This document shows positions 463-22,297 of a DNA stretch of 22,973 nt, piece by piece. Made by a program: the position numbers and the translations under genes. This DNA is from a virus, in IMG/VR virus record IMGVR_UViG_3300012013_000242, positions 1-22,973 of that record; one strand, given 5' to 3'. The notes beneath the pieces were generated by a model. The model was given only the letters and a program-made list of their open reading frames with translations. It was not told where the DNA came from and searched no databases. Numbering within the stretch: the stretch's first letter is position 1; each line of letters starts with the position of its first letter.

Positions 463-692
463 TTAAGAAGCGCCTTGTTGTGCCATTTATTCGTAGAGCC
501 GCCGTTCTCGTCTTTAATCTCTGCGGAGAGTCGATGCGCGATCTCGCGTCGTTGAGCCGACATAGCCGAAGTAACAATATCGCGTAGCGTATCGGCGGAG
601 AGTGTTAGACCGTCGCGAGTGCGAAACGATCCGTCTGTATTAAGAAGCACACCTGCGTCGATCGCTATCGCGACTAGATCATGCGCTTTCAC
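432..692 (-). CDS. Small hypothetical phage protein (GTG start)
   Basis: An 86-residue leftward gene of unknown function. The start is GTG at 692, supported by a strong AGGAG about 8 bases upstream. No ATG lies nearby in frame, so the ribosome binding site decides the start. It overlaps the end of the MazG-like gene by 14 bases, which suggests translational coupling. The sequence is soluble and mixed helical, with a segment TLRDIVTSAMSAQRREIAHR at residues 35-54 that could be an amphipathic helix. No motif or membrane segment is visible. Confidence 0.6.
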   Translation of the reverse strand: MKAHDLVAIAIDAGVLLNTDGSFRTRDGLTLSADTLRDIVTSAMSAQRREIAHRLSAEIKDENGGSTNKWHNKALLKCISIIVQNK

Positions 693-1002
693 GATCCGAC
701 TCCTTGATAAATACCCCGCTTTCGTTTAGATATCCTTTCCTGTCCTTGATCTCGTTGTATGCGACCTCGAGGCATGAGCGAAGATCAAGCCCGGTCATCT
801 GCGCGACGTTTGTTAAGCACACCAAGACATCGCCTATACCGTCTCTGATCTCCGGAAGGCGCCGCTTAACAATAGCGTCAGATAGCTCGCCCATCTCAGA
901 AACCGCCTTCATAAACTGCACCTCTGGAGTCGAGTTCTGCAGGATTTGTCGATCTCGCGACCATTGAATAACAAGCTTCTCTAGCTCTTCGAACGTTTTC
1001 AT
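679..1002 (-). CDS. MazG-like nucleotide pyrophosphohydrolase
   Basis: A 107-residue all-alpha protein with the MazG/dUTPase-superfamily metal-binding pattern: EMGEL at residues 36-40 (ExxE), followed by EIRDGIGDVLVCL at 51-63 (ExxD, plus D58). Family members hydrolyse NTPs or dNTPs to the monophosphate and pyrophosphate. Phage versions are thought to adjust nucleotide pools or ppGpp, or to remove modified nucleotides. The length matches single-domain phage MazG-like proteins. The ATG is preceded by AGGAG with good spacing. It is the first gene after a promoter with the shared operator (1017-1052), so it is probably under the same control as the recombination and amidoligase operons. Substrate cannot be told from sequence. 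Confidence 0.85.
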   Translation of the reverse strand: MKTFEELEKLVIQWSRDRQILQNSTPEVQFMKAVSEMGELSDAIVKRRLPEIRDGIGDVLVCLTNVAQMTGLDLRSCLEVAYNEIKDRKGYLNESGVFIKESDRESA

Positions 1003-2162: not shown

Positions 2163-2575
2163 GTTACCGCCTCTCCGTACTCTGCTATAAGACGGTAAAA
2201 CGCCTTAACTGTATCGGGCGAATCGTGCATCTCTGTGCGGCTCCGAATTCCGAGGATCGATCGTAGGGCGTTAGCAATATCGTCAGGGTTATCTGGGTCG
2301 ATAGCGAAATTCTTAGCGTCTCGCAACCAGCGACCGAAGGCGGCATCTCTGCAGATCATGCCAGCCTTCTGAATCGCTTCGTTAGATCCTGCGCTAGTTT
2401 TTACCTGTCGATGTAGCGCGGCTATCGCGACCCATAATTCCTCATTCGGTCGCGGTAGGCCAAACATCTCTACAACCTCGTTCGCGCTCTCGAGCGGCAC
2501 CTCGACGATAACCTGAGCAACCGATCGCGTTTTGACAATCTTGAAGTCTGCGTATGTTCCTTGTATAGCTCTCAT
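2159..2575 (-). CDS. Conserved phage protein of unknown function
   Basis: A 138-residue protein starting MRAIQGTYADFKIVKTRS. It has the look of a small phage family seen next to recombination or replication genes: an N-terminal beta region (AQVIVEVPLESANEVVEMFG), a Trp-containing helix (NEELWVAIAALHRQ) and a C-terminal helical part with RDAAFGRWLRD. I know no assigned function. The start at 2575 forms an ATGA overlap with the stop of the DUF932 gene, which argues against an upstream in-frame ATG at 2599. It is the last gene of the leftward recombination operon. Confidence 0.7.
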   Translation of the reverse strand: MRAIQGTYADFKIVKTRSVAQVIVEVPLESANEVVEMFGLPRPNEELWVAIAALHRQVKTSAGSNEAIQKAGMICRDAAFGRWLRDAKNFAIDPDNPDDIANALRSILGIRSRTEMHDSPDTVKAFYRLIAEYGEAVT

Positions 2576-3294
2576 AGGAAGCTCTCTGCAAGATCCCAAA
2601 GCTCGCGGTTAATCGTAATGCCGGAAGATGCACCGCGAATCCGGCGGCTAGTAAACGGCTTACCGTCAACCGTTACGCCTCGGACTCCTCCTTTAACGAT
2701 GTTCTCTTGTGCGCGATTAAAGACCGCCCACAGGTCATCAGAGGCGTCTTCCTGTCGCCGAGCCTCTAGGATCGCCCGCCCCATCCTGCCGTCGTAGAAC
2801 TTTTTTGATACCTGATCGACGAACTGATTTTGCTCGATCGGCGAGAGAATCCTGCTGCGGAACACCTCGATGCGCCTTGCGCTCTCCATCGCGTTAAAGA
2901 TCGCCTCTTTAGCGGCGGATAAGGCTTGGCCCTCTGCGTCTGCGGTATGACGTACAGAGATCGGTTGAAAGAACTTTCCGATAACAAGCCCGTTAGCGCA
3001 GACGTACCGAAACAGTCCTGTATAGAAACGAACGGCGGACGTTCCATCGTGACTGTTCGTAATTAGGATTTCCGGATGAGTTCCGTTTTTCTCTCGGAAG
3101 TTCTCGTGGCGCATCCTAGCGAAGTGAAACGCGGAATTCGGGTTGCGCTTCTGCGTCCGCCTCTGCCCGCTATCGGAGAGATAGAACCCGTTCTCCTCTA
3201 GCTGCGTAATGATTGCCTGTGTATGCACCATCGCATATCGCTGGCTTAGATGGTCTGCTTTAACTGGTTCTTTAATGGCTGAAACGGTTTTCAT
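2572..3294 (-). CDS. DUF932 / phage-plasmid-like protein
   Basis: A 240-residue protein matching the DUF932 (TIGR03299-like) family of phage and plasmid proteins. Recognisable parts are GFYLSDSGQRRTQ, a basic HFARMRHENF, the central VRFYTGLFRYVCANGLVIG segment (about residues 86-104) and helical repeats toward the C-terminus. Function is not established; members sit with recombination and anti-restriction genes. The ATG at 3294 is chosen because it has GAGG 7 bases upstream and forms an ATGA overlap with the preceding stop (3291-3293). The longer in-frame start at 3345 would add an unrelated stretch inside the upstream gene. Confidence 0.8.
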   Translation of the reverse strand: MKTVSAIKEPVKADHLSQRYAMVHTQAIITQLEENGFYLSDSGQRRTQKRNPNSAFHFARMRHENFREKNGTHPEILITNSHDGTSAVRFYTGLFRYVCANGLVIGKFFQPISVRHTADAEGQALSAAKEAIFNAMESARRIEVFRSRILSPIEQNQFVDQVSKKFYDGRMGRAILEARRQEDASDDLWAVFNRAQENIVKGGVRGVTVDGKPFTSRRIRGASSGITINRELWDLAESFL

Positions 3295-3581
3295 TTCTTT
3301 ACCTCGATAAGTCCTTGGTTCCATAGGGCAACATACGTCTTGCATATCGCTGTCTTTATATAAAGCTCTCTTTCTGCGCGGCTCATCCGTGTTCCTTGAT
3401 CGTAGTCGCTATGGCAGCGATAGCAGAGCCATGCCGTCATTGAGTCGTCCGCTTTGATGCTTCTACCTTTACCGTGTTCTAGAAGGTTAGAGTGCGCCGC
3501 GACGATCGTGCGATCTTGCGTTCCGCACATAACGCACGCCTGATCTTTAGCTAACCTAAGCAGAGACGGCGACCTAAACAT
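3291..3581 (-). CDS. DUF1364/HNH-like zinc protein
   Basis: A 96-residue protein with paired Cys motifs: CVMC at residues 16-19 and CYRC at 53-56. Between and around them are AAHSNLLEHGKG and a following HSDYDQG. This layout (CxxC, AHxN, HGKG, CxxCH, D/G) fits the DUF1364 family of lambdoid-type phages, a treble-clef/HNH-like fold suggested to be a nuclease. It lies between a PD-(D/E)XK nuclease gene and the DUF932 gene, overlapping the former by 8 bases and coupled to the latter by ATGA. That position supports a job in phage recombination or repair; activity is inferred, not shown. Confidence 0.75.
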   Translation of the reverse strand: MFRSPSLLRLAKDQACVMCGTQDRTIVAAHSNLLEHGKGRSIKADDSMTAWLCYRCHSDYDQGTRMSRAERELYIKTAICKTYVALWNQGLIEVKK

Positions 3582-4023
3582 AAACCCTCACAAAGCTAGT
3601 CATTGGGATTAGAGCGCACGGCTCAATGTCTTGTATGTCGTTTCGATCTACGCGACCGCCTAGAACAAGCCGCATATGAACTGACCTATCAATACGGGCG
3701 AAATAGACTTGATCGAGTAGACGAACAACTAACAAGAAAGGAACCTGAAAGACTTCCGAGATCGTTATGCCAGCTAGAAGCTTATGAGCGCCGATCATGT
3801 AGCCGCCTAGCTCCGCTATACGCTGCGCGGAGTAGTCGCGACATTTAACTTCTGCAACAGCGACGATCTCGTTATCCCTCATGATTGCGTAGTCGATCCC
3901 ATACTTAATGCCAAGCTTAGAAAACCTGCATCGCCATTTTTTCTGAAGAAAGAATGCGACAGAAGCTTCGTTAGCAAGATCTTTGTTGCTTTCATATAGC
4001 GGCCTAGAATGGGATTTGCTCAT
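3574..4023 (-). CDS. PD-(D/E)XK nuclease-like protein
   Basis: A 149-residue protein with the core of a restriction-endonuclease-like fold. There is a helix with E19 (NEASVAFFLQKKW), then GIDYAI with D44, then AVAEVKC with E58 and K60, which form the D-x(n)-E-x-K site. A helix with Q67 (SAQRIAELGGYMIGAHK) follows. Such single-domain proteins act as Holliday-junction resolvases, repair nucleases or VRR-NUC-like enzymes. Here it is between an SSB-like and a DUF1364-like gene in the recombination operon, so branch cleavage is a reasonable guess. It overlaps the upstream gene by 20 bases and the downstream gene by 8. Confidence 0.75.
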   Translation of the reverse strand: MSKSHSRPLYESNKDLANEASVAFFLQKKWRCRFSKLGIKYGIDYAIMRDNEIVAVAEVKCRDYSAQRIAELGGYMIGAHKLLAGITISEVFQVPFLLVVRLLDQVYFARIDRSVHMRLVLGGRVDRNDIQDIEPCALIPMTSFVRVYV

Positions 4024-4402
4024 CTGGCATATCGTCGTCCGTTGGGTTTCCTTCTCGCTGCTCGATCTGTGACGGAACTACAGCAACGCTTGTAAAGTCG
4101 TTCCCGTTTTTAGACATCTTCTTCCATGTAGAGATCCGCCAATCTACGTTGTTGACTTTAATAAATCCTCGCGCATCCGGGTCGCGGAATCCTTCGCCTT
4201 CTCTCTTGCGGTCGTTAGTGCGTAGCATCCCTACGCGCTGCATAACCTCGTAGACAACAGCGCCCGATTTGGTCGTGATTGCCACTACCGCAAAGTTCGA
4301 CTCCTCTCCTTCGATATTGATGCGACCGTAGCGGATAAGTTTCTGATAGCGCGGCTCGTGAAGCGCGCCGTTATTTACTACGCTGTGTTGCTTTTCTTCC
4401 AT
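4004..4402 (-). CDS. SSB-like single-stranded DNA-binding protein
   Basis: A 132-residue protein with a beta-rich N-terminal region (KLIRYGRINIEGEESNFAVVAI, TTKSGAVVYEVMQRVG) and an acidic, disordered tail that ends DDDMPDEQIPF. The acidic DxxIPF tip is the hallmark by which bacterial SSB proteins recruit partner enzymes. The body is not a textbook SSB OB-fold, so it may belong to a diverged phage family. The start at 4402 has GAGG 6-7 bases upstream. It sits downstream of the ERF annealing protein and YqaJ exonuclease, where an ssDNA-binding partner is expected. It overlaps the lipoprotein gene by 32 bases. Confidence 0.7.
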   Translation of the reverse strand: MEEKQHSVVNNGALHEPRYQKLIRYGRINIEGEESNFAVVAITTKSGAVVYEVMQRVGMLRTNDRKREGEGFRDPDARGFIKVNNVDWRISTWKKMSKNGNDFTSVAVVPSQIEQREGNPTDDDMPDEQIPF

Positions 4403-4577
4403 GACGATCCTCGATGCGTACATGCTGTACGGTTTGACAACTGTTAACGGTTTTGACGGTCCCTAGCGGACAGTAGCCGGGCGGCGGTTTTACGTCTTTA
4501 AGCAATGCCGGAAGGTCTACTACCGGGGTGGCGCAACCTGTCAGCAAGACGAGTGCTATAAGCGATAAAAGCTTCAT
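4371..4577 (-). CDS. Small lipoprotein inside the recombination operon
   Basis: A 68-residue protein with a short type II signal peptide: a lysine, a run of hydrophobic residues (LLSLIALVLL) and the lipobox LTGC with Cys15. The mature part is about 54 residues, with a PPPGYCPLG stretch, a further Cys and a basic C-terminus. Alanine after the lipid Cys predicts the outer membrane in Gram-negative hosts. It is coupled to the exonuclease gene by an ATGA overlap and overlaps the SSB-like gene by 32 bases, so it is co-expressed with recombination genes and not with the lysis genes. A role in superinfection exclusion or as an early membrane factor is possible; nothing proves it. Confidence 0.75.
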   Translation of the reverse strand: MKLLSLIALVLLTGCATPVVDLPALLKDVKPPPGYCPLGTVKTVNSCQTVQHVRIEDRHGRKATQRSK

Positions 4578-5401
4578 GACTTGATCTGAAAGTAGGTTAG
4601 TGGCTTTGCTCGATAAGAATCTACAGAGACTTGAGATAAGTATTTTTCTTGAATCTTTTTCCAGTTAATAGCTCCTTCTCGGGTAATCTTCTGAACTTCT
4701 ACACCATAACCGAAGTCTGTATCAGTGCGGCGGGCTTTGAGAAGTTTTTCTTTCGCTTCGTCTAGCTTAGCGCTCGCTTTGTCTAGTTCTTGTTTAGCCG
4801 CGATGTAAGCTTGAGCTAGCGCCTTCCAGTCGTCGTCGTCTCGAGAACGGATCGACGGCCAGAACTCGTCCCATGCGTCTTGAATAGTCTTCCACGCCTC
4901 ATGGTTTGGAAGAACTTCCAGTGTCGAATATTTCTGAGCTTGATGATTCCATAGCACATAGTGACAACGCTCGGCCTCGCATACCATTAGCTGATGCTGC
5001 ATCTGCATAAAATCGTAGATCGCAACACTATCGATAGATGCTAGGCTAAAGCGTTCGTTGTCCGTACTCCAAGGAACCTTGATTTCGATAATCGATTTAC
5101 CGTCTAACGAGATACCGTCAAGACTGGCGCCGTACTCGCCGTTTACGAAGACTGCGGGACGGAAGATCTCGCCGGTCATAGATTCGAATGCCGCTCGAGC
5201 TATTGGCTCCTGTTCCTTCCCTTTAGTCATGGCGGCGTTTTCGTACTGCCCCTTTCCGTCTACCTTCGCTGCGCGAATCGACGCTCGGTTTGCGTAAGGA
5301 GAAACACCGAGAACGGCTGGCGTCTCTGACGCCATTCGAAGACGGCGGCGCATCGCTAGCCACTCTGCCGTCCCTTGCTCTACCTGAACCTCGGTCTTCA
5401 T
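4574..5401 (-). CDS. YqaJ/lambda-exo-like recombination exonuclease
   Basis: A 275-residue member of the YqaJ/lambda exonuclease family, which digests double-stranded DNA ends from the 5' side to leave 3' single strands for annealing. Motifs in order are QGTAEWLAMRR (residues 9-19), RMASETPAVLG, a KGKEQEPIAR helix, ASLDGI with D95, and IEIKVP with E106 and K108 as the catalytic E-x-K. Q133 and Q136 in the FMQMQHQLMV helix complete the site. The C-terminal part after residue ~185 is a charged helical extension. It is coupled to the ERF gene by ATGA (5398-5401), a usual two-component recombinase arrangement. Confidence 0.92.
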   Translation of the reverse strand: MKTEVQVEQGTAEWLAMRRRLRMASETPAVLGVSPYANRASIRAAKVDGKGQYENAAMTKGKEQEPIARAAFESMTGEIFRPAVFVNGEYGASLDGISLDGKSIIEIKVPWSTDNERFSLASIDSVAIYDFMQMQHQLMVCEAERCHYVLWNHQAQKYSTLEVLPNHEAWKTIQDAWDEFWPSIRSRDDDDWKALAQAYIAAKQELDKASAKLDEAKEKLLKARRTDTDFGYGVEVQKITREGAINWKKIQEKYLSQVSVDSYRAKPLTYFQIKS

Positions 5402-6006
5402 ACTTCGCTCCGGTCGCGGCGCTGAAGCGAACTCATAACCGTTGCAAACTTAACGACAGGGATATCTCGGATTGACGCAACCTTGGCCCACTTAAGGATG
5501 TTGTCGATCTCTACGTTAACCTTGGCGGCTAGCTGTTCGATCGATGCGGCCTGTTCTTCAGAGATACGAGAATCGATTGGCTCTTGAGTGGTGTGATCTG
5601 CGTCGTTATCGCCCTCGGTCGGGATGCAGAACGACTGAAAGGCGGCGTACTTGTAGGCGGCGCTCATGGCTTTGTTGGTGCTTTTATCTCCGGAGTCCAT
5701 CGCCTCACCAAATACTGAGATCGTGTGCTTCGATCCGTCATGGCTAGAGATAAAATCGAACTCAACTTGTACCGTTGTATAGAACAGGATTGACCCTTTA
5801 ACGGTAGTGCGCTCGACAAGCTCGCGGGAGATAACGCGAGGCAGAATTACAAGACCGGCGCGGGCAAGAATCGGGGAGAGCTTGTTATATACATCGTCGA
5901 TGCTTCGAAACTTATAGCCCTGTTGACTGTTGTTGCGATCCTTGCTAATCCCTGTTTCCGCAATCTCTTGAGATACTGCTGCGATAAGCTGATAGACGTT
6001 CTTCAT
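5398..6006 (-). CDS. erf: ERF-family single-strand annealing protein
   Basis: A 202-residue protein with clear ERF-superfamily motifs: GYKFRSIDDVYNKLSPILA (residues 30-48), GLVILPR, and the strongly conserved GEAMDSGDKSTNKAMSAAYK region followed by IPTEGDNDAD. ERF proteins form rings on ssDNA and anneal complementary strands; phages use them for circularisation, repair and recombination. This is the first gene of the leftward operon, followed immediately by its exonuclease partner. It has AGGA 8 bases before the ATG and its own promoter with a consensus TTGACA at 6069-6074. The C-terminal third is a variable helical region. Confidence 0.92.
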   Translation of the reverse strand: MKNVYQLIAAVSQEIAETGISKDRNNSQQGYKFRSIDDVYNKLSPILARAGLVILPRVISRELVERTTVKGSILFYTTVQVEFDFISSHDGSKHTISVFGEAMDSGDKSTNKAMSAAYKYAAFQSFCIPTEGDNDADHTTQEPIDSRISEEQAASIEQLAAKVNVEIDNILKWAKVASIRDIPVVKFATVMSSLQRRDRSEV

Positions 6007-13814: not shown

Positions 13815-13836
13815 ATAGGTTAGAATCCTAACCTAT
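13815..13836. promoter_or_regulatory. Operator palindrome covering the HTH-gene start codon (copy 4)
   Basis: A perfect inverted repeat with 9-base arms (ATAGGTTAG and CTAACCTAT) and a 4-base AATC centre. Its core GTTAGAATCCTAAC belongs to the same family as the three promoter operators. The final AT is the first two bases of the ATG at 13835. TAGAAT at 13821-13826 is a good -10, which would place the transcript start at or next to the ATG. No convincing -35 was found. Confidence 0.75.
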
Positions 13837-14041
13837 GAAGATACGCCCGGAAGAGTTTAGAGAGTGGAGGCGCCGCCTTGATATTTCGCAGTACGAGGCG
13901 GCGGAACTGCTTCATTTCCGGACTCGAACGAGTGTTAGTCACTTAGAGACTGGCCGAGTCAAGATAACGAGAAGGCTATGGGATCTATGCTTAAGGATCG
14001 AGAAGGAGCGGCGAATCTTTCACAGTTCTACGATGCCTTAG
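13835..14041 (+). CDS. Small XRE-type HTH regulator, probably self-controlled
   Basis: A 68-residue Cro/cI-like protein with a helix-turn-helix at residues ~17-38 (ISQYEAAELLHFRTRTSVSH) followed by LETGRVKITRRLWDLC. It would bind DNA as a dimer, in keeping with a palindromic operator. There is no Shine-Dalgarno: the operator palindrome runs into the ATG, and a -10 lies 9 bases upstream, so a leaderless message like that of lambda cI from PRM is plausible. Its 3' end overlaps the methyltransferase gene by 64 bases. It is the only full-length HTH regulator here apart from the initiator, which makes it the prime candidate to bind all four operator copies. Confidence 0.8.
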   Translation: MKIRPEEFREWRRRLDISQYEAAELLHFRTRTSVSHLETGRVKITRRLWDLCLRIEKERRIFHSSTMP

Positions 14042-14643
14042 CGCCGCAGTACGATGCTTTGTATGTAGACACAATCCATTATGTCGAAGACGAATTAGTA
14101 TGGCAGTTAAGCGAGTCTATCGGTCCGCTTGGTAAGGTTCTCAGCGTCGGCTGCGGGACGGGAAACGATATTTCGATCTTAAGGCTTGAGCCAGAAAAGT
14201 CTGTGTGCGTAGACTTTTCGAAAAACATGCTGCGCATCGCCCGGAAAAAGTACCCAGAGTACAGATTCGAACTGCACGATGTAACTCAGTCCCCGTTTCG
14301 GTACAACGCAGATACGGTTGTCGCGTTATACGGGGTTGTAAATTACATTGGAATGCGAGCCTTTGTAAGGCAGGTGTTTCAGTCCGGCGCGACTAAGTTT
14401 ATTGCAATTCTGTATGCGAACGGCTATACGCCGTACAACATTGACAATATCCCGCATCGATTCGGGGTGTCTGATTTAATCGAGCTACGACAGGCTTTCC
14501 CGTCGCTTCGGGTAAGCGGGCTGTCGTATTTTATGGATAGCAACGACATCCCGTTCGAGCCTCTGCTTACGGCGCAAAAGCTTATGACAATGCAGCCGTC
14601 TAGTCTTTCAGGGTGCAAGTATTGGGTTTGTTATAGCACATGA
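13978..14643 (+). CDS. Class I SAM-dependent methyltransferase
   Basis: A 221-residue Rossmann-fold methyltransferase. YDALAPQYDALY at the start is typical of small-molecule or glycan methyltransferases. VLSVGCGTGNDISIL (about residues 54-68) is SAM motif I. CVDFSKNMLRIARKKYP follows as motif II, then FELHDVTQSPF. Substrate is unknown. In this position, ahead of glycosyltransferase-like and DNA methyltransferase genes, it may modify a nucleobase or sugar. The start is ambiguous between 13978 and 13987. It overlaps the HTH gene by 64 bases. Confidence 0.8.
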   Translation: MGSMLKDREGAANLSQFYDALAPQYDALYVDTIHYVEDELVWQLSESIGPLGKVLSVGCGTGNDISILRLEPEKSVCVDFSKNMLRIARKKYPEYRFELHDVTQSPFRYNADTVVALYGVVNYIGMRAFVRQVFQSGATKFIAILYANGYTPYNIDNIPHRFGVSDLIELRQAFPSLRVSGLSYFMDSNDIPFEPLLTAQKLMTMQPSSLSGCKYWVCYST

Positions 14644-14650
14644 GGTGCAA

Positions 14651-15208
14651 ATGACTCGGATAATTATTCGAGCCGTCCCAGAGAGGGCGGAGTTTATTGA
14701 CTATCTAAAAGAAAAGCTGCCGTCTGCCGAATGGTGCTTTGATCAGAAAAGAAACGCGATGGATACGTTTCTTCGGGCGCTCGATATGGCCGGAGACGAT
14801 CCGGTTGTACACATGGAAGAGGATGTAATTCTTTGCGAGTCTTTTCTATCGGATCTCGAGTCGGCAATCGCAAAGCGACCTACAACGTTAATTCAGTTCT
14901 TTTCGATGCGGAGTCAAGACCTAACGGTTGGGAGCCGCCTTGATCGCAACTTCCTAATGGGGCAGTGCTTCTATCTCCCCGCTTCGTATTCAAAGCAGAT
15001 TAGAGCCTACTATGAGACATGGCCTAACAGACGCAGCCATCCTACGGGGTTAGACACGATGGTGGGGGACTGGCTTAAAAGCAGGAAAGAAGCGTACTGG
15101 ATCAAGGTTCCGTCTCTAGTTAATCATAGGCAATGCAAGTCTGTAATCGATCCAAGAAGGTCTAGCAAGCGGCAGTCCCTTACATTCCGAGAATCTAATG
15201 CTCTATAA
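14651..15208 (+). CDS. Glycosyltransferase-like phage protein
   Basis: A 185-residue protein starting MTRIIIRAVPERAEFIDYL. It has a GT-A-like acidic metal site, VVHMEEDVILCESFLSDLE (about residues 52-70), which resembles the ExD/DxD of GT25/GT2-type enzymes. Other parts typical of a phage family are LIQFFSMRSQDL, MGQCFYLPASYS, HPTGLDTMVGDWL and PSLVNHR. The DxD-like motif suggests transfer of a sugar from an NDP-sugar; acceptor unknown. GAGG 5 bases before ATG 14651 decides against a GTG two codons earlier. It sits between two methyltransferase genes, overlapping the second by 11 bases. Confidence 0.7.
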   Translation: MTRIIIRAVPERAEFIDYLKEKLPSAEWCFDQKRNAMDTFLRALDMAGDDPVVHMEEDVILCESFLSDLESAIAKRPTTLIQFFSMRSQDLTVGSRLDRNFLMGQCFYLPASYSKQIRAYYETWPNRRSHPTGLDTMVGDWLKSRKEAYWIKVPSLVNHRQCKSVIDPRRSSKRQSLTFRESNAL

Positions 15209-15788
15209 CTCTGCTATAAGAAATGGGACTGTTCAGGAATCGGCGTGGCCTACCGAAAGGTTTGAGCATTACGGATCAATCGGAAAACGATGGAATATCG
15301 TCACAGAACCGCCGCCGAATGAGCTTTATCAATGCGATGTTATCTATTGTGAGCCGCCATTTCCTGCTGGCTTAAAAGTATTTGATCGGCGGGCGGGCGA
15401 ATCAACTAAAGACTACACCGTATTCGCGGAAGCTTTTGCAGAGGTTTGGCGAACGATTTCAGTGCCTAAATATGCAATCGTCAATCATCGTTTGCTTACA
15501 AAGTTACCTGCGCCATCAGGGATCGTTGTTGTAAAACTAAACAACGCTAAAGAGCGCCTTGCCTATTGGAATGCGCCGAAGCCAGAAGAGGATCAGACGA
15601 ACCTATCTATTTGCAAATGGCTAGGCAAGAGCTTTACTAGGCTAGGTGATATTACCTGCGGATACGGAATGCCGGTCCTGCACTTTGTACGCTCGCGTCC
15701 GGGGAATACGTTTTTTGCAAGCGACTATGACCCGCACTGTATTACCGTCCTAAGCCGCCTAACAAAAGAGGCGATCCCGAATGGTTAA
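15198..15788 (+). CDS. Beta-class DNA methyltransferase-like protein
   Basis: A 196-residue protein with the catalytic motif IYCEPPF at residues 49-55, a D/N/S-PP-Y/F variant with Glu in the first position. The SAM-binding motif LGDITCGYGMPVLHF comes later, at 149-163, followed by FFASDYDPHCI. Catalytic motif before SAM motif is the beta-class order, as in N6-adenine or N4-cytosine methyltransferases. The small size leaves little room for a target recognition domain, so specificity may come from a partner. It overlaps the glycosyltransferase-like gene by 11 bases and the IbrA-like gene by 8. Confidence 0.7.
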   Translation: MLYNSAIRNGTVQESAWPTERFEHYGSIGKRWNIVTEPPPNELYQCDVIYCEPPFPAGLKVFDRRAGESTKDYTVFAEAFAEVWRTISVPKYAIVNHRLLTKLPAPSGIVVVKLNNAKERLAYWNAPKPEEDQTNLSICKWLGKSFTRLGDITCGYGMPVLHFVRSRPGNTFFASDYDPHCITVLSRLTKEAIPNG

Positions 15789-16953
15789 GAAGCTTGTTAA
15801 TGCAAAGACGGACATGATGCGCCTCTATACAGGCGTAAACGTATTTGATGCTGCATTAGCGAGGATAGAGAGGCTATTTAACGAGTTTCCGACTATTGTT
15901 GTTGGTGTGAGTGGCGGGAAAGATTCGACAGTAGTGTTTGAGCTTGCGCTTATCGTAGCCAGAAAGCTAAACAGGCTTCCTCTTAAAATTATGTTTATCG
16001 ATCAAGAGGCGGAATGGCAAGCGACGGTTGAACAGATGCGTTACATGATGACGCATCCTGATGTAGAGCCGTATTGGTATCAGATTCCGATGCAGATACT
16101 TAATGCCACATCTACAACAGACTCATGGATGCATTGCTGGGACCCAGCGGAAGAGCATCGCTGGATGCGCGAGAAAGAGCCGTATGCGATTAAGGAAAAC
16201 ATCTTCGGTACGCGGCGGTTTGCGGAGCTATTTACCGCGATCCTTGAGAAGCAATGGGAGGGGCCGGTTGGTTATCTCGGCGGCGTAAGGACGGAAGAAA
16301 GCCCAGCGAGAAAAATCGGATTGGTGTGGAACTTGACCTACAAAGACATAACTTGGGGCAAGATTAATAACAAGGCGAAGAAAAAATTTACCTTCTATCC
16401 AATCTATGACTGGTCGTTTTCCGACGTATGGAAGGCGATTCATGCGAACAAGTGGCCGTATAACAGCATTTACGATGTACAGCATCGTTATGGGATAGCG
16501 CCTAAAGATATGCGAGTCTCGAACGTGCATCACGAGACGGCAGTTAGTCACTTGTTCTATATGCAAGAAGCGGAGCCGGAGACGTATGTAAAGCTCACCA
16601 ACCGAATTGGTGGTGTTGATATGTCAGGGAAGCTAGGGAAAGAATACTTTATTAAAGAGCTTCCGTTTATGTTTCAGGACTGGCAGGAATACAGGGAGTT
16701 CCTGCTCGATAAGCTCATAACTAACCCCGAATGGAAGGCGAACTTTCGAAAAACCTTCGACCGGCAGGACAAGTATTACGCCGAAACCGAAGGCGAGAAG
16801 TTATGGCGGATGCATATCAATGCAATCTTAACGAATGATTTCGCCGGTACAAAGCTCGGCAACTTCGAGAGAAGCCCAACGAGGCGATTCGACTATAAAC
16901 TCAAGCGAGAGAAAGAGCGCAATGTGGCAAACGGAACTACAGAAAGCGTTTGA
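15781..16953 (+). CDS. IbrA-like PAPS-reductase-family protein (DUF3440)
   Basis: A 390-residue member of the PP-loop ATP-pyrophosphatase superfamily. VVGVSGGKDSTVVFELAL (residues 40-57) is the PP-loop, and IMFIDQEAEWQATVE and GYLGGVRTEESPARK follow. The long C-terminal part with FYPIYDWSFSDVWKAI and YNSIYDVQHRYGI fits DUF3440, the family of IbrA. Classic relatives move sulfur or activate substrates with ATP. The next gene encodes a ParB-like IbrB relative, so the ibrA-ibrB pair known from E. coli prophages is preserved. The classic reductase CxxC-type site is not evident. Its target is unknown; a nucleic-acid thiolation or adenylation step is a guess. Confidence 0.85.
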   Translation: MVKKLVNAKTDMMRLYTGVNVFDAALARIERLFNEFPTIVVGVSGGKDSTVVFELALIVARKLNRLPLKIMFIDQEAEWQATVEQMRYMMTHPDVEPYWYQIPMQILNATSTTDSWMHCWDPAEEHRWMREKEPYAIKENIFGTRRFAELFTAILEKQWEGPVGYLGGVRTEESPARKIGLVWNLTYKDITWGKINNKAKKKFTFYPIYDWSFSDVWKAIHANKWPYNSIYDVQHRYGIAPKDMRVSNVHHETAVSHLFYMQEAEPETYVKLTNRIGGVDMSGKLGKEYFIKELPFMFQDWQEYREFLLDKLITNPEWKANFRKTFDRQDKYYAETEGEKLWRMHINAILTNDFAGTKLGNFERSPTRRFDYKLKREKERNVANGTTESV

Positions 16954-17584
16954 AGACGCCGAGGACAAACGTGCGTTTATCGAAGAGGCTCGAGATATCC
17001 TTCATGCCTTAAGCGCGTGTAAGTCTCAGCCTATCGACCGGGTGCGGTGGGTGCCTGTCGATAAGGTCTTCGCAAACGATTACAACCCGAACTCTGTGGC
17101 AACGAATGAGATGAGGTTATTGCACACCTCTATCTCTCACGATGGGTATACGCAGCCCGTCGTTACGATCTATGACGCAGAGGCGGATCGGTACGTTATC
17201 GTTGACGGCTTTCATCGCTATACGATTATGCGGCGCTACAACGACATCCGTGAGACGACAGGCGGGATGCTACCTATCGTCGTTATCTCTAAGAGCATTG
17301 CGGAGCGTATGGCGTCTACTGTGCGGCATAACCGAGCTAGGGGGAAGCACTCCGTAGCGGGTATGGCGAACATCGTCTTCGGGATGCTTGATAACGGGGT
17401 ATCGGACTCTGAAATCTGCAAGGCTCTGGGGTTAGAGAGTGAAGAGCTTGTAAGGCTTAAGCACGTTACAGGGTTTAGCAAGCTATTTGAAAACGTCGAT
17501 TACAAGCTCGCTTGGGAGACTAAGCGGATGTTGCAACTAAGGAAAGAATATGAAGCTTCAAAAGCTCAAGCTAGCGCAGATTAA
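16922..17584 (+). CDS. IbrB-like ParB-domain protein
   Basis: A 220-residue ParB/sulfiredoxin-superfamily protein. The ParB fold covers about residues 40-120: VRWVPVDKVFANDYNPN, HTSISHDGYTQPVVTI, IVDGFHRYTIM (in place of the usual GxHR box), and ASTVRHNRARGKHS. An HTH-like part follows (NGVSDSEICKALGLESEELVRLKHV). Recent work shows that several ParB-fold proteins are CTPases or nucleotide-using enzymes. It overlaps the IbrA-like gene by 32 bases. I start at the ATG 16922, which has a purine-rich AGAGAAAGAG upstream, not at 16835 deep inside the upstream gene. Confidence 0.82.
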   Translation: MWQTELQKAFEDAEDKRAFIEEARDILHALSACKSQPIDRVRWVPVDKVFANDYNPNSVATNEMRLLHTSISHDGYTQPVVTIYDAEADRYVIVDGFHRYTIMRRYNDIRETTGGMLPIVVISKSIAERMASTVRHNRARGKHSVAGMANIVFGMLDNGVSDSEICKALGLESEELVRLKHVTGFSKLFENVDYKLAWETKRMLQLRKEYEASKAQASAD

Positions 17585-18125
17585 ACCGTACTGGCGCAAC
17601 CCGCGAAACAACATTACAGCGGTTGAGGCTGTAAAGCGGTCGATCGAGGAGTACGGCTACAACTCGCCGATTCTAGTTGACGAGAACTTCGTTGTAATCG
17701 CGGGGCATACAAGGCTCTTAGCACTGCGCGATCTCGGGTGGAAGGAGGCTGAAGTCGGCGTCCTGTCGCTATCGGAAGAGAAGGCTAAGGCTTACCGAAT
17801 CGCTGATAACAAGTCGGCGGAGCTTGCGACATGGGATCAGGAAAAGCTCTTGCAGGAGCTTCGAGAGATTACGAAAATCGAGACGCTTGACGTATTTTTT
17901 CCGGGCGTAGACCTATCAGAAATGATCTCTGAGGATGTAGGCGCGTCATCGTTTAGCTATCCTTCGGAAGAGAAGATTCAGGCGGCGGCGAACAATGTCG
18001 AGACGCATTTCGAGGAAGCTAACGCAGGCTATCGTGAAGGGCTATATGAAGTTATCTGCCCGCACTGTAGCGAGTCGCACTTTATCAACAAATCAGAAGT
18101 GCTTGGGATGAAGCCGGATGTTTGA
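17550..18125 (+). CDS. Second ParB-like protein with C-terminal CxxC
   Basis: A 191-residue protein whose first ~95 residues are a ParB domain of the kind often fused to phage adenine methyltransferases: YWRNPRNNITAVEAVKRSIE, PILVDENFVVIAGHTRLLAL (40-59) and YRIADNKSAELATWD. Here no methyltransferase follows. The remainder is acidic and ends in YEVICPHCSESHF, a CxxC-x3-H motif (C170, C173) that may bind zinc. The beta-class methyltransferase is a separate gene upstream, so the two may work as a split pair. AAGGA precedes the ATG. It overlaps the upstream ParB gene by 35 bases. Confidence 0.82.
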   Translation: MKLQKLKLAQIKPYWRNPRNNITAVEAVKRSIEEYGYNSPILVDENFVVIAGHTRLLALRDLGWKEAEVGVLSLSEEKAKAYRIADNKSAELATWDQEKLLQELREITKIETLDVFFPGVDLSEMISEDVGASSFSYPSEEKIQAAANNVETHFEEANAGYREGLYEVICPHCSESHFINKSEVLGMKPDV

Positions 18126-18438
18126 TTTTACGATCGAGAGTGCGAGGGAGTTTATCGAAGGGCACGAATGGACGTTTGCCAAGTCGATGCCAAAGATCCC
18201 GCATTGGTACGTCGTAAAAGAGCAGTGCAGGAGCGGGTTCGAGTTTGAGGCGTTCGTCGCCTTGATTCGAAAAGAGGGCTATGCGAAGCGCTGGTTTCGC
18301 AGAGAATTTATTTATCTTGATATTGATGGGTGGTCATATTGGACAATGGGCGCACCGATACACGAGACGACAATTATCAACAGAGCGAAGAATTCCGGCA
18401 CCGCTGTGAAGTTAGATGGGTCCTTCAAACAATTGTAG
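18118..18438 (+). CDS. Conserved phage protein of unknown function
   Basis: A 106-residue protein rich in aromatics: HEWTFAKSMPKIPHWYVVKE, a FEAFVALIRKEGY helix, then FIYLDIDGWSYWTMGAPIHE followed by TTIINRA. The YLDIDGxxYWTMG..TTIINR pattern looks like a phage-associated family I have seen without a function. It overlaps the ParB gene by 8 bases and the next gene by up to 109 bases. Confidence 0.7.
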   Translation: MFDFTIESAREFIEGHEWTFAKSMPKIPHWYVVKEQCRSGFEFEAFVALIRKEGYAKRWFRREFIYLDIDGWSYWTMGAPIHETTIINRAKNSGTAVKLDGSFKQL

Positions 18439-18620
18439 ATAAGGATCGGTCTGCGCGTGACTGGTTTAAATCGTATCTCGAACTTGTAGAAAAGGCTCGC
18501 GGAATAGCAGCAAAAGATGCGCTACACCGCGATACCGTTAAACAATGGAAGCTTGGGAACCGTGGGCAGGAGCGCGACTGGAGGCCCGAAGCAGAGCCTC
18601 CTCGAGCGGTACGCGATTAA
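18330..18620 (+). CDS. Conserved phage protein, start uncertain
   Basis: Up to 96 residues from a GTG at 18330. The conserved part is EEFRHRCEVRWVL (from about residue 20), then YLELVEKARGIAAKDALHR and QWKLGNRGQERDW. This RCEVRW...VEKxRG...GNRG..DWR pattern occurs in a small phage family of unknown function. No ATG is in frame before the conserved part and no good ribosome site is seen. A TTG at 18339 is another option. The conserved part begins inside the previous gene, so a long out-of-frame overlap is real whichever start is used. Its 3' end overlaps the convergent cyclotransferase gene by 83 bases. Confidence 0.6.
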   Translation: MVILDNGRTDTRDDNYQQSEEFRHRCEVRWVLQTIVDKDRSARDWFKSYLELVEKARGIAAKDALHRDTVKQWKLGNRGQERDWRPEAEPPRAVRD

Positions 18621-18987
18621 GCCCGAAGTCCTGATAGCCCTCGCGGATGATATCGAAGTACGGGCGGGATGGTTTTGAGTAACCGGTGCGGTTCATCTTG
18701 TAGGCCATCGCCGAGACGATCTTTCCGCTAGAGAGTGCGACAAAGAAGCTTTGTTGCTTGTATAGCGTTGGCGCACCTTCATAGGCGTCTAGAGCTTGCT
18801 CGTCGTCTTCGCTAATGTCCCAGACGGCTACCGGGACGCGGAAACCTGCGGCGGGTTCTATGTCGGCGACATTCCGGAAAACGAGACGCCAGTTAAGGAT
18901 GTGACCGGTGTCTAGAACCTTAGCGTCTGGGCAACGGCGGGACATTTGAGCCATATTCATGTTCGAACCATAAGCTGCGTACAACAT
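18538..18987 (-). CDS. Gamma-glutamylcyclotransferase-like protein (AIG2/GGCT)
   Basis: A 149-residue GGCT-fold protein starting MLYAAYGSNMNMAQMSRRC, with the diagnostic YGSNM loop, PVAVWDISEDDEQALDAYEG carrying likely catalytic E70, and the following YKQQSFFVAL. These enzymes release 5-oxoproline from gamma-glutamyl peptides or amines. It lies in an operon with an amidoligase, a pairing reported for mobile elements and phages and read as making and breaking gamma-glutamyl-type bonds. GGAG 8 bases before the ATG at 18987 sets the start, two bases below the DUF6876 stop. The last ~25 residues overlap a convergent gene and may not be conserved. Confidence 0.85.
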   Translation of the reverse strand: MLYAAYGSNMNMAQMSRRCPDAKVLDTGHILNWRLVFRNVADIEPAAGFRVPVAVWDISEDDEQALDAYEGAPTLYKQQSFFVALSSGKIVSAMAYKMNRTGYSKPSRPYFDIIREGYQDFGLNRVPLEEALLRASSRAPAHGSQASIV

Positions 18988-18989
18988 TA

Positions 18990-19349
18990 TCAATACTCCG
19001 AAGGGACGATGAGGACGTTATTCTGAAGGTAAAACTTCCAAGTACCTTCTGGGCAATCCGTAAAATCGATCCGCTTGTACATGAGGTAACTTCCGTTGCC
19101 GTCGTGCATCTTAAAGTCTGCAGCAGACCCTTTGACAACTAGCTCGACCACAACGAAAGGCTCTTCTTTGACCAGATGCCTAACGGAACCAACGATATCA
19201 AGAAACCAGAACGCCTCGGCGTGTTTTGCAAAGAAAAGCACCCCGTCCGAGAAGCGCATTCCGGTAAAATGACGGTAATACTTCTCTGTCGAGAAGAACT
19301 GCGCAAGGTTTGATTGAAGCTCTGTTGGTTGCATAACGACTGCTCTCAT
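18990..19349 (-). CDS. DUF6876 family protein
   Basis: A 119-residue protein that matches DUF6876 as I know it: LAQFFSTEKYYRH, FSDGVLFFAKHAEAFWFLD, FVVVELVV, the DGNGS turn, IDFTDCP and a terminal NNVLIVPSEY. Members occur on plasmids and phages and have no known activity. GGAG 6 bases upstream fixes the start. It lies between amidoligase and cyclotransferase genes, so it may be a substrate or partner of that system. Confidence 0.82.
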   Translation of the reverse strand: MRAVVMQPTELQSNLAQFFSTEKYYRHFTGMRFSDGVLFFAKHAEAFWFLDIVGSVRHLVKEEPFVVVELVVKGSAADFKMHDGNGSYLMYKRIDFTDCPEGTWKFYLQNNVLIVPSEY

Positions 19350-20514: not shown

Positions 20515-21099
20515 ATGACAAGGCTATCGCCAGACAGATGGCTAGAGATACGGAACCTGTTCGTTCACGGGATCGTTGATGAGAGCGGGCGGCGGGAATA
20601 CCTAAGCGTTGACGCGATCGGGAAACGCGAGGGGGTTAACCCTTCGACGATTCAGAAGCGGTCAAGGGAAGAGAACTGGGTCGGCGCTAGGGCGGACTTC
20701 GAGCGGCGGTTACGGGATCAGGTCGATCGGGAGCGGCGCAAGGAGTTAGCAAAGGAAGCGTCTGAGTTCGACATTACATCGTTGCGGCTCGCTAAGGGAT
20801 TGCAGAACGAGATCGCGCAGATCATTATTGAGTCGCAGGAAAACCGGAGGCGGTACAAAGAGGCGCTATTAAACGGGCGGCGCCCAGACCCCGAGCTTCG
20901 CTTGCTTGCTCCGGCAACCTTAAACTCGCTTGCTTCGGCTTTAAGCGTTGCGCAGAAGGTGGGCCGACTGGCAATGGGAGAATCAACGGAAAACGCGAAT
21001 GTCAACGTTAACGATCAAAGAGAACTCGAAGAGGCTCGTAGAATTATTGACGAACTGGCCAGAGGGAAGCGCGAAGACGGGCCTCCTGTCGTACATTAA
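20515..21099 (+). CDS. Terminase small subunit-like protein
   Basis: A 194-residue protein immediately before the large terminase gene. Residues ~30-55 (SVDAIGKREGVNPSTIQKRS then REENW) are an HTH of the kind used by phage TerS to recognise the packaging site. A long charged helical region follows (RRLRDQVDRERRKELAKEAS), then a C-terminal part with AKGLQNEIAQIIIESQENRR. TerS oligomerises and recruits TerL to viral DNA. AGAGG 7 bases upstream supports the start. Its 3' end overlaps the TerL gene by about 101 bases. The assignment rests on position, length and HTH. Confidence 0.8.
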   Translation: MTRLSPDRWLEIRNLFVHGIVDESGRREYLSVDAIGKREGVNPSTIQKRSREENWVGARADFERRLRDQVDRERRKELAKEASEFDITSLRLAKGLQNEIAQIIIESQENRRRYKEALLNGRRPDPELRLLAPATLNSLASALSVAQKVGRLAMGESTENANVNVNDQRELEEARRIIDELARGKREDGPPVVH

Positions 21100-22297
21100 A
21101 TGGGTTCGCGACGCTAGGCCAAAGCAGTTAACACCCGAAGGCGACTGGAATATCTGGCTAATTCTCGCTGGCCGGGGCTGGGGTAAGACGCGAACCGGGG
21201 CGCAGGATATCTCGTTATATGCGCAGAACAACCCCGACGTTCGCTGCGCAGTCGTCGCCCCTACGTCCGGAGACTTGCGGCGGGTTTGCTTTGAAGGGCC
21301 GAGCGGGATTCTTAAGATCACCCCAGAGGCGGCGCTGTGGAAGGGGTTAGGCAAAGCCTATAACGGAACCACTCAGGAACTTCGGTTCGCCAATGGTTCG
21401 CTAATACAGGGCTTTGCGGCTATTGAGCCAGACCGGATGCGGGGTCCGCAGTATCACAGGGCATGGGCGGACGAGCTTGCGGCTTGGCGATACCCCGACG
21501 CTTGGGATCAACTACAGTTCGGCTTGCGCCTCGGGGATCACCCGCAAACCGTAGTAACTACCACCCCAAGGCCGACGCCGCTCATCCGTGACTTAATGAA
21601 GCGTAAGGATGTGCACGTTACTCGAGGCTCAACCTTTGAGAACTACAGCCTAGCCGCTGCCGCGCTACAAACCTACCGCGACCGTTATGAAGGCACTAAG
21701 TTAGGTAGGCAGGAGCTATACGGAGAGGTTCTCGATGATATCGAAGGCGCTCTGTGGACGCATACCGTCATTGACCGCCAGCGTATTAAGCGGGAAAATC
21801 TTCCAGAGTTACGGCGAGTCGTGGTTGCGCTAGATCCCGCAGTCACAACTAACGATGAATCAGCCGAAACTGGCATAATCATCGCCGCTAAGGGCGAGGA
21901 CGGTCGGTATTACATCCTTGGGGATCTTAGCGGGCGGCATTCGGCAGAATTATGGGCGCGGAAAGCGGTGCACGCATATTACGAATTTGAAGCCGACCGA
22001 ATCGTTGGGGAAGTAAATCAGGGCGGCGATTTAATCGAGCGGATGCTCCGCATTATCGATCCGAAGATTACATATAAAAGTGTAAGCGCAACACGCGGCA
22101 AGATCGTTCGAGCCGAGCCGATTGCGGCTTTGTATGAACAAGGGAAAGTCTCGCACGTAGGCGCTTTCCCCGCGCTAGAAGATCAGATGTGCACCTACGC
22201 CGGTACTGGTAAATCGCCGGATCGATTTGACGCTCTGGTTTGGGCGTTAACGGAACTGTCTTCGTCCAGCGGGGCGGCATCGTGGAGAATTTCATGA
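20999..22297 (+). CDS. terL: Terminase large subunit
   Basis: A 432-residue packaging motor protein. ATPase domain: ILAGRGWGKTRTG (55-67, Walker A), VVAPTSGDLRR, and HRAWADEL (153-160, Walker B with D158/E159), followed by TTTPRPTP as the coupling motif. Nuclease domain: VVVALDPAVTT with D279, and RFDALVWAL with D411. It pumps DNA into the prohead and cuts it at the start and end of packaging. Its style (GDWNIWLILAGRGWGKTRTGA) is that of the Terminase_6 group. I start at ATG 20999; an in-frame start at 20948 exists, and neither has a strong ribosome site. Its stop is ATGA-coupled to the portal gene. Confidence 0.95.
   Translation: MSTLTIKENSKRLVELLTNWPEGSAKTGLLSYIKWVRDARPKQLTPEGDWNIWLILAGRGWGKTRTGAQDISLYAQNNPDVRCAVVAPTSGDLRRVCFEGPSGILKITPEAALWKGLGKAYNGTTQELRFANGSLIQGFAAIEPDRMRGPQYHRAWADELAAWRYPDAWDQLQFGLRLGDHPQTVVTTTPRPTPLIRDLMKRKDVHVTRGSTFENYSLAAAALQTYRDRYEGTKLGRQELYGEVLDDIEGALWTHTVIDRQRIKRENLPELRRVVVALDPAVTTNDESAETGIIIAAKGEDGRYYILGDLSGRHSAELWARKAVHAYYEFEADRIVGEVNQGGDLIERMLRIIDPKITYKSVSATRGKIVRAEPIAALYEQGKVSHVGAFPALEDQMCTYAGTGKSPDRFDALVWALTELSSSSGAASWRIS

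Follow-up and report, generated by a model that had tools for sequence, protein, structure and literature searches.

A conserved phage module of IbrA, IbrB and exchangeable decorating enzymes, probably for DNA hypermodification

A seven-gene cassette in a viral contig

The window analysed here is the whole 22,973 bases of an IMG/VR contig (IMGVR_UViG_3300012013_000242) from a virus infecting bacteria, and its subject is a cassette of rightward genes built around the pair IbrA and IbrB. A first-pass annotation, made from the sequence alone, had placed six overlapping rightward genes at 13978-18125 and had read them as a possible pathway for DNA or nucleotide modification. All six open reading frames (ORFs) are indeed present at these positions, although the word overlapping does not hold for MT1 and GT1, which are separated by a 1-bp gap. 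A seventh gene, X106, which was absent from that list, overlaps ParB2 and belongs to the module, the order in the window being MT1-GT1-MT2-IbrA-IbrB-ParB2-X106 (Table 1). The terminase gene lies 2.5 kb from the module, whereas relatives usually carry the module directly upstream of their terminase genes.

Table 1. Features of the window, with module genes listed first
Feature	Position	Strand	Assignment and basis
MT1	13978-14643	+	Slot gene; class I S-adenosylmethionine (SAM)-dependent methyltransferase (Methyltransf_25/11; Pfam)
GT1	14645-15208	+	Slot gene; GT-A-fold glycosyltransferase (phrog_854, AlphaFold2, Foldseek)
MT2	15198-15788	+	Slot gene; distant MTc7 homologue, motif IV degenerate (EPPF), D-x-x-CGYG motif
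IbrA	15781-16953	+	Core; PP-loop ATP-pyrophosphatase (PAPS_reduct + DUF3440; Pfam)
IbrB	16922-17584	+	Core; ParB/Srx-type, invariant DGFHR motif; longest ORF from 16835
ParB2	17550-18125	+	Core; ParB domain as in type II DNA methyltransferase fusions, plus conserved CPxC
X106	18118-18438	+	Core or adaptor; small orphan-fold protein, FAK.M..PH ... YWxM ... INRA
Terminase large subunit	20948-22297	+	Terminase_6N/6C (Pfam)
HTH regulator	13835-14041		Small helix-turn-helix (HTH) protein
GGACT	18538-18993	-	Gamma-glutamyl cyclotransferase-like
Recombination block	2572-6006	-	DUF932, PDDEXK_14 nuclease, YqaJ exonuclease, ERF annealing protein
MazG-like	679-1002	-	Pyrophosphohydrolase

Core proteins

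IbrA passes the Pfam cut-offs for both PAPS_reduct (52.8 bits) and DUF3440 (33.6 bits), in agreement with its first assignment as an IbrA-like PP-loop protein, and its PP-loop, SGGKDST, occupies residues 44-50. Across 39 divergent IbrA sequences the loop (SGGKDS) and about twenty residues are invariant, while no cysteine is invariant or nearly so. The PDB entries nearest to the IbrA profile are FAD synthase (an adenylyl-transferring enzyme), CysD and PAPS reductase, and the nearest profiles in a defence library are BrxP and DndC. Owing to this company and to the lack of a conserved cysteine, our preferred prediction for IbrA is activation by adenylyl transfer from ATP, with no transfer of sulfur. 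The sulfur chemistry suggested earlier was rejected: besides the missing cysteine, the Aminotran_5 family of cysteine desulfurases (DndA) was found in none of 41 related contigs, many of which are fragments, and a host enzyme could substitute.

Translation of IbrB probably begins at 16922 rather than 16835, judging from the purine-rich, ribosome-binding-like stretch that precedes the ATG at 16922; conservation begins later still. Both ParB calls of the annotation were borne out by PHROGs, with IbrB matching phrog_2159 at 4.4e-71 and ParB2 matching ParB families (phrog_620 and phrog_498) at 1e-46, though Pfam ParB_N stayed below its cut-off in both. IbrB also weakly resembles SbnI, an O-phosphoserine synthase. 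ParB2 matches the N-terminus of PADLOC MTase_II (2.7e-23), and this likeness to the ParB domain found in fusion with type II DNA methyltransferases is the best single pointer to DNA.

The model of X106, a confident one (predicted local distance difference test, pLDDT, 87), had no significant match in the PDB and a single viral relative, A0A516LRX9. Elsewhere X106 is fused to SET, MT1-like methyltransferase or SpeD-like domains (L042:1363-2088, L038:4991-6004, L005:4408-5241); a SET protein-type methyltransferase domain is unusual in a phage modification cassette. No membrane-type segments were found in the module.

Slot enzymes of the window

MT1 passes the Pfam SAM-methyltransferase cut-offs, as had been proposed, and gives a weak match to a tRNA methyltransferase PHROG; CmoA is not among its NCBIfam matches. 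In some relatives (L005, L067) it is fused to X106. For GT1, which has no Pfam match and matches only phrog_854 "glucosyltransferase" (4e-10) in PHROGs, the glycosyltransferase-like call was substantiated by an AlphaFold2 model (pLDDT 94.7) with a GT-A fold. Among the listed entries of its 56 PDB matches at E<=0.001, most are GT-A glycosyltransferases and nucleotidyltransferases, and Foldseek matches include COLGALT1 (GT25), mimivirus R655 and KfiA. D60, D137, P156, H161 and S166 are invariant in GT1, D60 of the E/D-D motif in the acidic nucleotide-sugar/metal site being so in 80 sequences. The third call, a beta-class DNA methyltransferase, found no confident support: MT2 matches no family in Pfam, PHROGs, PADLOC or NCBIfam, and instead of the [DNS]PP[YFW] motif IV it has EPPF, relatives showing EVPW, EIPW, DLPW, ETCW and others. 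By profile comparison (hhalign, 98.6%) MT2 is distantly homologous to MTc7, an N6/N4-methylase-like family. A collection scan with MT2 alone gave no confirmed locus.

Co-occurrence of the genes in other phages

A search with the single IbrA sequence returned 64 viral contigs, and an IbrA profile search returned 80 loci, mostly new, out of 321 confirmed. Six-frame profile searches over all loci gave 265 distinct viral IbrA loci, of which 137 have full flanks. The neighbourhood that recurs consists of ParB2, X106, a variable slot, IbrA and IbrB, followed by terminase genes; in some lineages, the window included, the order is shuffled but the gene set stays together. Within the full-flank loci IbrB adjoins IbrA in 136 of 137, ParB2 is present in 103 and X106 in 88, a terminase lies near 84, and at least one slot enzyme (payload) is found in 123, or in 87 of the 88 which carry X106. 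Full-flank loci that came from the IbrA scans only have IbrB in 63/63 and a payload in 54/63.

We also scanned 2.9 million viral contigs starting from GT1, MTc7, X106 and the HxD family, without conditioning on IbrA. IbrA or IbrB lay within about 6 kb (full flanks) for GT1 in 24/25, MTc7 in 23/23, X106 in 26/27 and HxD in 21/21 loci; a control scan with YqaJ gave no loci, and these rates thus stand without a direct chance rate for IbrA near a random gene. Such a near-complete reciprocal return is unexpected for mobile accessory genes. In GTDB genomes, an independent collection, IbrA was found in 7 contigs, and all six with upstream room have core plus payload, sometimes truncated.

Conservation over hundreds of contigs excludes a chance arrangement. 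From reciprocal co-occurrence and the cassette exchange described below, it is virtually certain that the genes form one functional module. The annotation is thereby supported as far as one functional module is concerned, and the linkage in other genomes, proposed there as a check, is much stronger than could be known from one sequence.

Slot contents and cassette exchange

In most loci the slot lies immediately ahead of IbrA. About ten families supply its modifying enzymes, each filled slot containing one or more, and 46 non-empty combinations were seen. These families comprise the glycosyltransferase GT1, GT2 (GT-A, family-2-like, matching polysaccharide-type GT2 enzymes) and GT3; MTc7 (N6_N4_Mtase-like, with DPPW), the DNA-methylase-like MT2, the SAM methyltransferase MT1 and a TylF-like methyltransferase; a GNAT acetyltransferase; the AdoMet decarboxylase SpeD (PF02675); SET or MT1 domains fused to X106; and the HxD family, a putative Fe(II)/2-oxoglutarate oxygenase with an invariant HxD...H, for which the sole PDB hint of an oxygenase is a proline hydroxylase at E=0.77. 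GT1 lies near 105 of the 265 IbrA loci, MT1 near 40 and MT2 near 32. SpeD occurs in 27 of the 265, mostly with MTc7 (for example L046:4766-5134 and L052:4708-5076).

The contents follow pairing and exclusion rules which are biochemically sensible. The HxD family and GT1 go together (odds ratio 14.5, p=5e-11; the Fisher p-values assume independent loci, an assumption that related phages violate), and MTc7 pairs with SpeD, whose presence suggests polyamine or aminopropyl chemistry. GNAT never occurs together with MT1, MT2 or the HxD family. Such exclusion would be consistent with acyl- and methyltransferases competing for a single acceptor group; this could be an amine, though an amine on the handle is a guess.

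The most direct view of the slot comes from near-identical phages. L192 and L239 share IbrA, IbrB and TerL at 99%, 100% and 100% protein identity, yet one carries GT1 and the HxD oxygenase and the other MTc7 and MT2, with 97-98% DNA identity resuming <=6 bp from the IbrA start. The same exchange was noticed in five further pairs (L009/L063, L008/L167, L046/L052, L027/L032 and L175/L230); phages that are 94-100% identical in core proteins carry slots unrelated in content, the breakpoints lying next to IbrA. A chimeric assembly is possible for any one contig but unlikely overall, since six separate pairs break near the same gene. X106 often changes along with the slot: at IbrA identity >=85% it was <=60% identical in 15/46 pairs with different payloads vs 0/38 with the same payload (Fisher p=7e-5, the pairs not being independent of each other). 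Because X106 changes with the slot contents, it may be a payload-matched adaptor. Independent variation of these genes among relatives had been named as evidence against a joint pathway; the decorating genes do vary, but as slot swaps beside a constant core.

Cultured carriers

Read through the ends of its circularly permuted genome, Microbacterium phage Hendrix has GT1, a second glycosyltransferase, an X106-containing methyltransferase and GNAT, together with IbrA, IbrB, two ParB2 and terminase. Microbacterium phage Rasputia has the Hendrix core with a different payload, and the X106-like domains of both were found by profile search. Arthrobacter phage Waltz carries the core and one methyltransferase. 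Mycobacteriophage Bernardo (cluster B3; L074, 73-4474) has ParB-IbrA-IbrB-terminase and no recognised payload; cluster B3 genomes begin with ParB, two small genes, IbrA, IbrB and terminase. A tblastn search with MT2, one X106, one MTc7 and one HxD oxygenase gave no match in 50,697 phage records, which makes most slot families nearly invisible among cultured phages.

Comparison with known modification systems

Hallmark-enzyme searches covered 40-41 contigs of up to 89 kb, many of them fragments. The ThyA-family dCMP/dUMP hydroxymethylase (thymidylate-synthase/hydroxymethylase family), on which hydroxymethyl-pyrimidine hypermodification of the T4, SP10 and phiW-14 type is based, was found in 0/41, the C5-methylase PF00145 (CmoX) in 0/40 and the TGT-family DpdA in 0/41, and the routes that start from these enzymes were set aside. 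MazG, suggested earlier as a partner, was likewise rejected, a MazG-like pyrophosphohydrolase occurring in just 2/40.

The nearest concept is the CmoA/CmoX/CmoY system of phage S-B43, where a 5-carboxymethylcytosine handle on the base is extended by other phage enzymes; ParB-domain genes with no known role lie nearby, and IbrA is not mentioned (PMC12783734). The likeness lies in the handle with later extension and in the ParB-domain neighbours. The Cmo core differs, however, consisting of a C5-methylase homologue, a carboxy-SAM (Cx-SAM) synthase and an amide ligase, and MT1 does not match the Cx-SAM synthase CmoA. DNA phosphorothioation (DndABCDE, Ssp, and type-4 BREX with BrxP) likewise brings a PAPS-reductase-like PP-loop enzyme and a ParB-superfamily partner (DndB) to DNA, but IbrA scores 30.8 bits against the DndC cut-off of 290.4 (TIGR03183), the conserved cysteine and the desulfurase family are missing as described above, and decorating transferases are not part of Dnd. 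In the Dpd 7-deazaguanine system the ParB-like ATPase DpdB is needed alongside the base-modifying enzyme (PMC12839542), a parallel to the module, whose contigs differ in having no TGT-family enzyme.

In T4-type glucosylation of hydroxymethylcytosine and in thymidine hypermodification (5-hydroxymethyluracil, 5hmU; putrescinyl-thymine) phage DNA also receives a handle and then glycosyl or amino decoration. The module contigs differ from these in the hydroxymethylase family and MazG counts given above.

The papers found treat IbrA/IbrB as prophage coactivators or regulators only and do not state a biochemical function, and E. coli K-12 has a PAPS-reductase/DUF3440 plus ParB-like pair, YbdN/YbdM. 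The same adjoining pair is seen in both; payload and X106 are not described there. We found no description of the module, bioRxiv and a 2013 survey (doi 10.1093/nar/gkt573) lying outside the search, so that an earlier mention is possible.

Interpretation of the module

We consider that the cassette probably serves post-replicative hypermodification of phage DNA by a constant core with exchangeable decoration. The modification role first proposed is thus still the best reading, the part concerning DNA being a matter of probability: ParB2 resembles a DNA-methyltransferase ParB domain, MTc7 is N6_N4_Mtase-like, IbrA lies near the BrxP and DndC profiles and the module stands beside terminase, and on these grounds DNA is the probable substrate. 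The families, the integrity of the module and its swapping are observed directly, as is the absence, among the contigs searched, of enzymes from other pathways; we infer the order of steps, the handle and the advantage of exchange.

In the mechanism we envisage, IbrA would spend ATP on activating a target group by adenylylation. IbrB, as a ParB/Srx-type nucleoside triphosphatase or phosphotransferase, would work obligately with IbrA, ParB2 would recruit the machinery to DNA and X106 would couple the core to the decorating enzymes; jointly the core proteins would equip a base of polymeric DNA with a chemical handle. The slot enzymes would then finish the handle by sugar transfer (GT1, GT2), by sugar transfer after a hydroxylation step (HxD oxygenase with GT1), or by acylation (GNAT) or alkylation (MT1, MT2, MTc7, SpeD, SET); the product in the window would be methylated and glycosylated. 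Slot exchange would alter the modification and allow escape from host restriction. Adenylyl activation by IbrA as the source of the handle is only a tentative suggestion. The chances are about even that an ATP-dependent IbrA/IbrB core, dispensing with nucleotide-pool enzymes, sulfur donors and base exchange, puts the handle directly on polymeric DNA, and that swappable sugar, acyl, methyl or aminopropyl decoration gives phages a rapidly switched chemical coat against restriction; this would make an undescribed class of hypermodification.

Several observations weigh against DNA modification by such a module. No modified base is on record for any carrier phage, the closest folds to GT1 act on proteins and glycans and not on DNA, and the catalytic motif of MT2 is degenerate. 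IbrA neighbourhoods were the source of the payload profiles, and the scans have some contigs in common, which leaves the counts not fully independent. IbrA-IbrB also occurs without detectable payload in Streptococcus, Flavobacterium and mycobacteriophage B3, which means that the pair must have an activity of its own. A helicase stands in place of the payload in L068, L069, L070, L114, L120 and L124 (SNF2-like in L068 and L070), from Flavobacterium, Streptococcus and some metagenomic phages, and a conserved family of about 290 residues with no known function (EIIMYRTFYPLLE...) adjoins IbrA in L117, L120 and L124.

The same logic of core and decoration could be directed at tRNA, at a protein of the phage or its host, or at a glycan of the cell surface, a reading we regard as rather unlikely. 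Collagen galactosyltransferase and KfiA are among the best folds for GT1, GT2 matches polysaccharide-type enzymes, proteins are frequent substrates of SET and GNAT domains, MT1 weakly recalls a tRNA methyltransferase, and prophage serotype conversion also employs glycosyl- and acetyltransferases. On the other hand, two ParB-type proteins and DNA-methylase-like enzymes belong to the module, it lies beside terminase, and unlike gtr/oac systems it has no membrane-type segments. A counter-defence hot spot, in which independent anti-restriction or anti-defence genes gather upstream of terminase with no joint pathway, would account for the rapid slot exchange between near-identical phages, as in anti-defence islands. 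It is improbable, as the slot families are found almost only alongside IbrA/IbrB, X106 is fused to payload enzymes, the slot has its pairing and exclusion rules, and the module stays intact when gene order is rearranged, as in the window. It is similarly improbable that IbrA/IbrB produce or use up a small molecule, adenylylated or a nucleotide, which serves anti-defence or signalling and is tailored by the slot enzymes; the FAD synthase, CysD and PAPS reductase profiles and the weak likeness of IbrB to SbnI would suit this, but MTc7 and the DNA-methyltransferase-type ParB domain of ParB2 point to polymeric DNA. That IbrA and IbrB are simply the transcriptional coactivators of prophage gene expression named in the literature, with incidental neighbours, is very improbable in view of the obligatory enzyme company of IbrA and of the PP-loop and other catalytic-type residues kept over the 39 divergent sequences.

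If DNA hypermodification is the function, phages may exchange cassettes to switch the decoration of their DNA, much like the switching of surface antigens in bacteria. The module brings to light a large pool of modification enzymes in phages, and its link to IbrA and IbrB gives these widespread proteins, annotated as prophage coactivators, a testable job. It is directly testable in culturable phages, since Hendrix and Rasputia (core with payload) and Bernardo (core without recognised payload) allow direct comparison of a decorated with a possibly bare handle.

As for the surroundings of the cassette in the window, the gene of the small HTH regulator overlaps the start of MT1, and control of the cassette by it is possible. 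The GGACT gene follows directly after the cassette on the opposite strand, and the recombination block runs leftward.

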